Positions 29,277 through 31,225 of a DNA stretch of 33,593 nucleotides are shown in pieces (positions within the stretch are counted from its first letter, which is position 1; the number at the start of each line of letters is the position of its first letter). Below the pieces are notes generated by a model. That model searched no databases, had not been told where the DNA came from, and was given only the letters and a program-made list of their open reading frames with translations. The translations under genes and the position numbers were made by a program. The stretch comes from Synechococcales cyanobacterium RM1_1_8 (GTDB lineage Bacteria; Cyanobacteriota; Cyanobacteriia; PCC-9006; JAAUQQ01): the NCBI GenBank assembly GCA_012032745.1, contig JAAUQQ010000007.1:1-33593 (forward strand). Reading direction: 5' to 3'.

Positions 29277-29564
29277 CTATCCGGGTAATGTCTCGGGCGA
29301 CACTACCTCCCCTTTTGTTATGTTCTGCGAATCCGAATCCGTCATCGCTCGGCCTGAAATCCTCAGCCGCTGCCCCCTCAGCGCAGATGAGATCACCGGG
29401 TTGCTGGCTGCTTTCCTCAACCGCTTCATCCGATGCTCCAACCGGGCGGGCTCTGGCTCCTTGCCAGTGATCAAAAGTGAGATCCGTCGGAGCTTGGCGA
29501 AGCCAATCGCATCCCTCACCAGCTCACTATCACTCTGTCCCGTCTCCTGCCCGTAGGCCTGCAT
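29277..29564 (-). CDS. Ribbon-helix-helix-like (CopG-type) protein with an in-frame inserted element
   Basis: The frame encodes 95 residues, beginning MQAYGQETGQSDSELVRDAI. The pattern QAYGQETGQSDSELVRDAI resembles the helical part of CopG/RHH DNA-binding proteins, for example antitoxins. The preceding beta strand (MKxxxIRLxxE type) is missing because a TAA lies two codons upstream of the Met, so the gene is probably truncated or frameshifted. Eight residues, IGFAKLRR, interrupt the helix between VRDA and ISLLITGKEPEPARLEHRMK. They come from the 23-bp element at 29487-29509; without them the helix reads on naturally. The C-terminal 40 residues look unstructured. No toxin gene is recognisable beside it. 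Function as a regulator is inference. Confidence 0.5.
   Translation of the reverse strand: MQAYGQETGQSDSELVRDAIGFAKLRRISLLITGKEPEPARLEHRMKRLRKAASNPVISSALRGQRLRISGRAMTDSDSQNITKGEVVSPETLPG
29487..29509. repeat. 23-bp small dispersed element, copy 1
   Basis: The sequence runs TCGGAGCTTGG to CGAAGCCAATCG and is identical over 23 bases to 29883-29905. It contains a GCTT/AAGC mini-hairpin around GGCG. Relative to the uninterrupted reading it adds 24 bases, eight codons, inside the ribbon-helix-helix-like gene (read on the minus strand). Confidence 0.85.
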
Positions 29565-29656
29565 CGCTTAGTACAAGCTTTGGGGAATCCTCCCACCCAC
29601 TGCCACCATCGCTAACGGCGTTGACCTTCTGCTGGTCTATTGTGCTCGTGGGAGCG

Positions 29657-30007
29657 ACCATCACCTTTCGCAAGCAGAACACGAAGACCAAAACCACGCG
29701 CCAGGCGGCGATGCATCCGACGCTGGTGACGTTGGAGTCTGAGCTGCCGGAGTCGGGCGATGTGTTTCCGGGGAGGCATGGCCGGGGGCGGCTGACGCGG
29801 CAGGGCGCGGATCTGGTGCTGCGGGAGGCTTGTGAGCGGGTTGGGTTAGTGGGGGTGAGTACCCATAGCTTTCGGCGCTCCTTCGGAGCTTGGCGAAGCC
29901 AATCGTTCATGACGCAGATGAAGGAGGAGGGGAAGACGCCGGTACAGATTGGGGAGTATACGGGGCACCGGAATTTGGCCTCGTTGCTGCATTATTTTGG
30001 GGCTTAG
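29657..30007 (+). pseudogene. Tyrosine recombinase, 3' fragment
   Basis: Only the C-terminal catalytic part remains. Similarity begins at about TITFRKQNTKTKTTRQAAMH; everything upstream in the frame is unrelated, so the N-terminal half is missing. Next come VFPGRHGRGRLTRQGADLVL and VGVSTHSFRRS (the HxxR box), then FMTQMKEEGKTPVQIGEYTG and GHRNLASLLHYFGA, with the second His and the putative nucleophile Tyr in LLHYF. An eight-residue insert, FGAWRSQS, between HSFRRS and FMTQMK comes from the 23-bp element at 29883-29905. The core boxes resemble chromosomal phage-type integrases, not integron IntI. The fragment cannot make a full recombinase. Confidence 0.8.
29883..29905. repeat. 23-bp small dispersed element, copy 2
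   Basis: Exact copy of 29487-29509, in the same orientation on the plus strand but sense to the recombinase fragment. Relative to the uninterrupted reading it adds 24 bases flanked by TTC on both sides, so a 3-bp target duplication is possible. The reading frame is preserved. Confidence 0.88.
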
Positions 30008-30118
30008 GATGCTGGCTGAGTGGCTATTGCCTGCTAGGCCAGTGCCAGTCGTGCTTGAGAAGACCTGTGTGCGAAGCTGCTCTGGGAGCTGCTTTTAGGC
30101 AGGGTTGATTAGCGGTGG

Positions 30119-30253
30119 TTATGAAGAAAGTTTCTGCCTATCGTCCCGATGGGTAGGTTATGCGGAAAGTTTCGGGATATCCTCTAGGGGATATGTGGAA
30201 AATTTCCGCCTATGCAGCCTTTCAGGGGCGTTATACGGAAACTTTCCGCCTAC
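30119..30253. repeat. Four palindromic 23-24-bp repeats at 33-40-bp intervals
   Basis: Units start at 30119, 30158, 30191 and 30231. The consensus core is TATGCGGAAAGTTTCCGCC, with outer TTA and TAT, so each unit is a near-perfect dyad GCGGAAA-N-TTTCCGC. Units three and four are the most symmetric; units one and two carry changes in one arm. Spacers are 15-16, 9 and 16 bases. They lie just after the recombinase fragment and about 100 bp before the first VOC gene. Confidence 0.85.
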
Positions 30254-30354
30254 TAACAAGTTAGCCTCCCTAAATTCCTGACTACTAGTCGCTGTCGAAA
30301 TCTAAAGCAGTAATTCTCTACCTATCCGCTGTCCACAATCGATTGAAAGTCATC

Positions 30355-30747
30355 ATGAAACTCGGCTACACGATCATCTATGTCCCAAGCGTGGTAGATT
30401 CACTCCACTTCTTCAATCAAGCCTTTGGTCTGGAGCAGAGGTTTCTGCATGAGTAAGGCGACTATGGCGAACTGAACACTGGAGAAACTACGCTTGCATT
30501 TGCTGCTCATGAGCTTGGAGAGATGAACTTTCCGGAAGGTCATATTCGAGCCAGTGAATCCAAGCAACCCTTGGGCGTAGAAATTGGACTTGTCACTTCT
30601 GACGTACATGCCGCGCATAAGAGTGCACTTATGCATGGAGCTATCGAACTTTCAGCCCCAATTCAAAAACCATGGGGTCAAATCGTCTCTTATTTGCGGA
30701 CACCGGATGGAACGCTCGTTGAGCTATGCACTCCCGTATCTGCATAA
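30355..30747 (+). pseudogene. VOC-family (glyoxalase/bleomycin-resistance fold) gene with a nonsense codon
   Basis: From the ATG at 30355 the product would be MKLGYTIIYVPSVVDSLHFF followed by NQAFGLEQRFLHE, then a TAA at 30454-30456. The same frame continues GDYGELNTGETTLAFAAHEL to a proper end at CTPVSA. Homologues I remember read HESGDYGEL here, so TCA to TAA is the likely change. Excluding the stop, the 130 codons form one VOC domain with the beta-alpha-beta-beta-beta repeat and a late Glu (DGTLVELCTP) as a metal ligand. The substrate cannot be assigned; VOC proteins include lyases, dioxygenases and drug-binding proteins. The gene is AT-richer than the backbone and lies in the HIP1-free island, so it was probably acquired. 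Confidence 0.8.
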
Positions 30748-30835
30748 AAGTGTGGCTTAACCTTCGCTTAACTGTTGGTCGGGTTTTATTTTAGCTCACA
30801 CGTTCGCCCTCTTGGAACAATAATTGAGAATAGTT

Positions 30836-31225
30836 ATGGGCTTTAGCCGCATTCTTACAAACATCTGCTCCGATCAACTTATAGAAAGCCGAGATTTCTA
30901 TGTGGCTCTGCTTGGCTTTGAGGTAAGTTATGACAGTGATTGGTATGTTCAACTTCGCAGTCCGTCTAATCAAGAACTAGAGTTTGGTATTATTCTTCGC
31001 AGTCATAATCTGGTTCCACAGGAGTATCAAACTGCTCCATCAGGTATGTATGTAACGTTTGTGGTTCCCGCAGTTGATCTAGTCTACGAAAAAGCAGTAG
31101 CTATGGGGCTTCGCATCGTTCAAGAACTCAAAAACGAGTTTTATGGGCAGCGTCGATTCTTAACCGTCGATCCAAATGGTTGTTTGATAGATATTTGTTC
31201 ACCATTTACTGAAGCGGAGGAATAA
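30836..31225 (+). CDS. VOC-family protein, second gene
   Basis: The product is 129 residues from the ATG at 30836 (MGFSRILTNICSDQLIESRD); an in-frame TTG at 30824 would add four. The fold is a single VOC domain: LIESRDFYVALLGFEVSYDS, then DWYVQLRSPSNQELEFGIIL, a middle strand GMYVTFVVPAVDLVYEKAVA, and the end RRFLTVDPNGCLIDICSPFT. The usual late Glu ligand is replaced by Asp (LIDICSP). It is not a duplicate of the first VOC gene, as the two differ throughout. Base composition is AT-rich. The stop is followed 28 bp later by the attC-like inverted repeat, as in an integron cassette. Function is unknown. Confidence 0.82.
   Translation: MGFSRILTNICSDQLIESRDFYVALLGFEVSYDSDWYVQLRSPSNQELEFGIILRSHNLVPQEYQTAPSGMYVTFVVPAVDLVYEKAVAMGLRIVQELKNEFYGQRRFLTVDPNGCLIDICSPFTEAEE

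Follow-up and report, generated by a model that had tools for sequence, protein, structure and literature searches.

A 24-nucleotide insertion at HIP1 sites in a cyanobacterial genome, probably a mobile element of the SDR5 type

Two copies of one short repeat interrupt neighboring gene remnants in a 33,593-nt window of Synechococcales cyanobacterium RM1_1_8 (here G000, a draft genome of 4.78 Mb in which the window is contig C281). Our reading, to which we give a probability of about 0.7, is that both inserted recently and belong to a 24-nt non-autonomous mobile element, one of the SDR5 class of small dispersed repeats and targeted to the octamer HIP1. The HIP1 target was absent from a first-pass annotation of the same DNA; with it in hand, a HIP1-targeted, SDR5-like element is the better reading of what that annotation saw.

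Two insertions between the third and fourth bases of HIP1

The first-pass annotation had described the same 23 bases occurring twice, in opposite orientation relative to two genes and with the reading frame kept across each. The description holds exactly: TCGGAGCTTGGCGAAGCCAATCG lies at 29487-29509 and at 29883-29905, and a search of the window at up to 3 mismatches returned these two copies and no others (shuffling expectation, 0). Alignment with two relatives showed that the true unit is a 24-bp insert, which the 23-mer only partly covers (Table 1). Synechococcales cyanobacterium CRU_2_2 (G296) and a second genome, G292, belong to the same family as G000, and G292 to the same genus. Both carry the two window loci without the insert, and the gaps are exactly 24 bp. 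The earlier proposal of a clean insertion, whose removal restores the family sequence, is thereby borne out, as is the expectation that homologues would lack the added residues at both sites. In both relatives the empty site of copy 1, TGAGATCGCATC, reads TGAG/ATCGC, and that of copy 2, CGGCGATCGTT, reads GGCG/ATCGT (slashes mark the insertion point). Since both relatives are empty and outgroup integrases lack the eight residues encoded by copy 2, the 24 bp represent a gain in G000.

Table 1. Positions of the two element copies, their target half-sites, hairpins and host genes in the window
Feature	Positions	Strand	Basis
Element copy 1, ATCCGTCGGAGCTTGGCGAAGCCA	29482..29505	+	between GAG and ATCGC; exact 24-bp gap in G296 and G292
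Copy 1 target octamer, left part GAG (HIP1: GCG)	29479..29481	+	empty site TGAGATCGC in both relatives
Copy 1 target octamer, right part ATCGC	29506..29510	+	empty site TGAGATCGC in both relatives
Copy 1 hairpin TTGGC-GAA-GCCAA	29494..29506	+	stem covariation, 122 distinct family copies
Copy 1 host, small ribbon-helix-helix-like gene remnant	29277..29630	-	open homologues in G296 and G292
Element copy 2, CTCCTTCGGAGCTTGGCGAAGCCA	29878..29901	+	between GCG and ATCGT; exact 24-bp gap in G296 and G292
Copy 2 target octamer, left part GCG	29875..29877	+	empty site GGCGATCGT in both relatives
Copy 2 target octamer, right part ATCGT	29902..29906	+	empty site GGCGATCGT in both relatives
Copy 2 hairpin TTGGC-GAA-GCCAA	29890..29902	+	stem covariation, 122 distinct family copies
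Copy 2 host, tyrosine-recombinase remnant	29652..30007	+	Pfam PF00589, E=5e-6

The same junction recurred at other loci. Between Myxacorys californica and M. almedinensis, locus L080 presents a clean 24-bp gap at GCG/ATCGC; at L054, G000 and G292 differ by a net 24 bp, and the left half-site also carries two substitutions. The 24-bp difference was thus seen at four loci (both window copies, L080 and L054) and falls within the length class of SDR5-type repeats, which reportedly span 21-27 nt. The remaining orthologous pairs lie outside this clean-gap set, L072, L060 and L063 being too diverged and L050/L202 ambiguous, while L086/L207 is filled in both Myxacorys species. Collected copies with their flanks gave the consensus GCG/ATCCTTCGGAGCTTGGCNNNGCCA/ATCGC, with GCG on the left in 93 of 143 copies and ATCGC on the right in 115 of 143. 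Some target sites depart from HIP1; the empty sites are GCG/ATCGC or one-base variants of it. Insertion therefore occurs between the third and fourth bases of HIP1 or of a one-base variant. HIP1 itself is abundant in the window, at 64 copies against 1 expected, an over-representation of about 60-fold.

The 3-bp target duplication for which the first-pass annotation suggested looking came out ambiguous. ATC is found at each end of copy 1 and may be either a duplicated target or the element's own terminus; copy 2 has CTC at its start and ATC at the other end. Terminal inverted repeats and a target duplication are the marks of a miniature inverted-repeat transposable element (MITE); here the flanking GCGAT and ATCGC belong to HIP1, and the ends of the two copies fit such an element equivocally.

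Both host genes in the window are decayed. The gene that carries copy 1 contains a nonsense codon at 29568-29570 and an altered C-terminus, and the integrase that carries copy 2 lacks its N-terminal ~70 residues, where the homologue in G296 is open over 184 codons. The earlier assignment of the latter as a recombinase is backed by its Pfam match; the ribbon-helix-helix assignment of the former goes without such support, as a Pfam scan matched no family. At 29604-29655, the ~460-490 bp that separate the ribbon-helix-helix-like gene from the integrase in G296 and G292 are absent, and the integrase N-terminus is gone with them. Just 3' of the integrase remnant, 30117-30257 holds four direct repeats of 29 nt, imperfect and partly palindromic (TATGCGGAAAGTTTCCGCCTA-like), at a spacing of 33-40 nt. 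Farther on, a VOC/glyoxalase gene (30355-30747) is apparently broken by an in-frame stop near 30454, as read by eye; its C-terminal ORF (30523-30747), the only one scanned, matches the family weakly, and a second VOC-like ORF (30824-31225) is open.

A dispersed family with a covarying stem

The first-pass annotation had called for a genome-wide count of the 23-mer, and the result is far above chance: at up to 2 mismatches the pattern occurs at 12 places in G000 and its reverse at 0. When the loop was unconstrained and as many as 3 mismatches were accepted, the family numbered 13 copies in G000, 4 in G292, 1 in G293, 2 in G294, 7 in G295 and 83 in G296, as well as 124 in M. californica, 42 in M. 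almedinensis, 4 in FACHB-63 and 1 in one other genome; reversed-pattern controls gave 0 in every genome. The element is thus dispersed in multiple copies, from 1 to 124 per related genome. Because G296 holds 83 copies elsewhere and 0 at both window sites, insertion continued after the lineages split. Across a phylum sample of 292 genomes, the family occurred only in G000 and the two Myxacorys. Viral contigs contained no exact match and plasmids only chance-level matches, so neither set revealed a vector. The 13-mer core by itself was discarded as a counting probe, being too short (48 matches against 14 for its control).

Individual copies offered further observations. L057 (G000:C433:1376-1443) contains two element copies 42 bp apart, and L094 in Myxacorys has apparent head-to-tail copies; either may be a nested or tandem insertion. 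The copy at L072 (G000:C458:12126) falls at one margin of an N6-adenine DNA methyltransferase domain of the D12 class. Enzymes of this class can methylate GATC, the core of HIP1.

Within the element, covariation among 122 distinct copies points to the stem TTGGC-NNN-GCCAA, the last A of which is part of the target half-site in both window copies. Pair G18-C26 ranked top of 406 site pairs (p=6e-10, in a test that treats copies as independent and so ignores kinship among them), both sites having changed in 10 distinct copies, and each of the five stem positions holds a standard pair in 94-98% of copies. The loop, by contrast, is hypervariable: 25 copies perfect at the other 29 positions carry nine different loop triplets. 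No covariation supported pairing between the HIP1 halves. The full element folds no more stably than shuffled sequences (z about -1), and its minimum-energy RNA structure uses another pairing. Covariation therefore carries the structural case, since fold energies are unremarkable and the RNA minimum pairs otherwise. The GCTT and AAGC mini-hairpin seen by the first-pass annotation was rejected, as the loop bases it needs for pairing vary freely; the covarying hairpin takes its place. SDR5-type repeats are likewise said to have conserved secondary structure with compensatory changes. The aligned copies show a stem constrained by compensation around a hypervariable loop of three bases.

Residence in genes

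Set within HIP1 and with its common loops, the element contains no stop in any of the six frames, a property shared by 9.5% of shuffled 24-mers. All six combinations of frame and orientation occur, and copies are found in genes and in intergenic DNA; among the copies with enough flank, 80 of 109 fall within open frames 150 codons or longer. Relative to intact HIP1, copies are nevertheless depleted from long open frames in M. californica (24/39 versus 483/544, p=3e-5) and, to a slighter degree, in G296 (p=0.04), in both cases on a non-random sample of copies. Such depletion suggests that insertions in coding DNA are to some extent selected against.

The element stands in frame within genes for ferredoxin-dependent glutamate synthase (ferredoxin-GOGAT), KsgA, ChlB, CbiG, a class-V aminotransferase and others, in several of these enzymes inside the domain. 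The solved homologue of the glutamate synthase, 1llw, lacks exactly eight residues at the insert site, as does 6ifs for KsgA; the gap in ChlB is larger than eight residues. Judged by the intactness of their sequences, the element often adds eight amino acids to what appear to be working enzymes. Since it contributes eight residues and no stop whatever frame it lands in, these inserts are probably, for the most part, tolerated passengers.

The first-pass annotation had taken the kept frames of the window copies as a sign of selection for frame, a conclusion that these two copies do not support. Both host genes are broken, so frame keeping in these remnants says nothing about selection, and any insertion of an element 24 nt long and open in six frames would keep the frame.

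Relation to known repeats and mode of movement

SDR5 of Nostoc punctiforme (Elhai et al. 2008, Genome Res 18:1484, cited in PMC4390886) inserts between nucleotides 3 and 4 of HIP1, according to PMC4390886. When 540 kb of Nostoc plasmids were searched de novo for repeats that split HIP1, the families recovered included GCG/TAGGCGTAGCCCGCCGCAGGC/ATCGC, a 21-nt insert in 14 copies, and an 18-nt form. We presume the 21-mer to be SDR5 itself or closely related to it; a de novo search of 76 kb of a Nostocaceae-like genome found none. Like SDR5, the present element is a tiny dispersed repeat with the same cut point in HIP1, and like the Nostoc 21-mer it places a GGC-NNN-GCC hairpin beside a CNCCGNAGG-type tail. 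It differs in sequence and in length (24 nt against the 21-nt and 18-nt Nostoc inserts), in being open in all six frames where the 21-mer has a TAG in one, and in its carriers, a Pseudanabaenaceae-like family and Myxacorys rather than Nostocales. Alignment of the two gave p 0.008-0.13, a weak similarity, and a pattern spanning both occurred in 37 of 386 genomes, mostly of one family (f7, probably Nostocaceae), with controls at 0. Common descent would be plausible on this similarity but is unproven. It is established that the element works like SDR5 in size class, target, cut point, hairpin and dispersed, mobile habit; by sequence it appears to be a new family outside the Nostoc group, in a comparison made with the presumed rather than the published SDR5 sequence. 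In Nostocaceae-like genomes the loop triplets of the Nostoc HIP1-split repeat often come in both senses, GTA and its reverse complement TAC, which would fit a hairpin able to flip.

The first-pass likening to the small dispersed repeats of Nostoc therefore stands, whereas that to Rickettsia palindromic elements is a functional analogy only. Both kinds are mobile repeats lying in frame inside conserved protein genes, but the Rickettsia elements are 105-146 bp long palindromes (PMC2229807), against 24 nt, a 5-bp stem and a single target octamer here. REP and REPIN sequences, mobilised by the Y1 transposase RAYT, are also short, hairpin-forming, dispersed and thought to move in trans. The element departs from their extragenic, inverted-pair arrangement in being mostly intragenic. 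It has a fixed HIP1 target and lacks the paired REP doublet, and its carriers cannot be told from non-carriers by their Y1 transposases.

As to how copies spread, we infer a route through a folded intermediate. A folded single strand, as RNA or as an ssDNA hairpin, would be the form recognised and copied; the copying enzyme would be supplied in trans; and new copies would enter HIP1 sites opened by nicking or breakage. No enzyme could be linked to the element: IS200/REP-type Y1 transposases (PF01797) are present in 18 of the 19 genomes tested, whether or not these carry the element, and so do not decide the matter. That no dedicated enzyme stands out is also what one would expect if spread needed no transposition enzyme, a nick or break at HIP1 being repaired by copying from an element-bearing HIP1, with the octamer halves serving as microhomology for template switching or gene conversion. 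The constant HIP1 flanks would offer the same microhomology to every empty HIP1, the octamer is greatly over-represented in the window, and directed cutting at HIP1 has been suggested as a partial explanation of SDR5 insertion (Elhai 2015, PMC4390886). The hairpin would then be a by-product or an aid to template switching. Repair alone, however, leaves unexplained both the stem compensation around a hypervariable loop and the lack of this family from other HIP1-rich genomes, and we consider it unlikely, if the most serious competitor to a mobile element.

Selection for the peptide itself, with in-frame segments benefiting host proteins in the manner of a domesticated module, would fit the many copies in open frames and those in conserved enzymes. 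Yet the use of all six frame and orientation combinations means that there is no common peptide, copies in M. californica are depleted from long open frames, and both window hosts are broken; this explanation has very little to recommend it. Less probable still is a coincidental or recombination-derived local repeat, such as one duplication, outside any dispersed family. The window copies are just 396 bp apart, but their flanks are unrelated, both sites are empty in relatives, and the spread of copies throughout the genome and into other genera rules it out. Returning to the HIP1-targeted mobile element, a fuller account might hold that it is copied via a folded intermediate, with the three loop bases rewritten or freed each time, and also that its length and stop-free frames have been shaped for life in coding genes, where it lengthens essential enzymes by octapeptides in several lineages of cyanobacteria. 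We offer this combination tentatively and think it rather doubtful as a whole.

The element is among the smallest mobile DNA described, and the way in which elements of some twenty bases move has been in question since they were first described. Mobility and tolerance can both be tested directly with this family: its empty and filled sites form clean pairs and its point of insertion is mapped, its covarying stem encloses a loop that varies freely, and it occurs as a natural octapeptide in enzymes whose homologues have solved structures. HIP1, itself unexplained, thereby gains a second associated family of insertions, one that differs in sequence and lies outside Nostoc.
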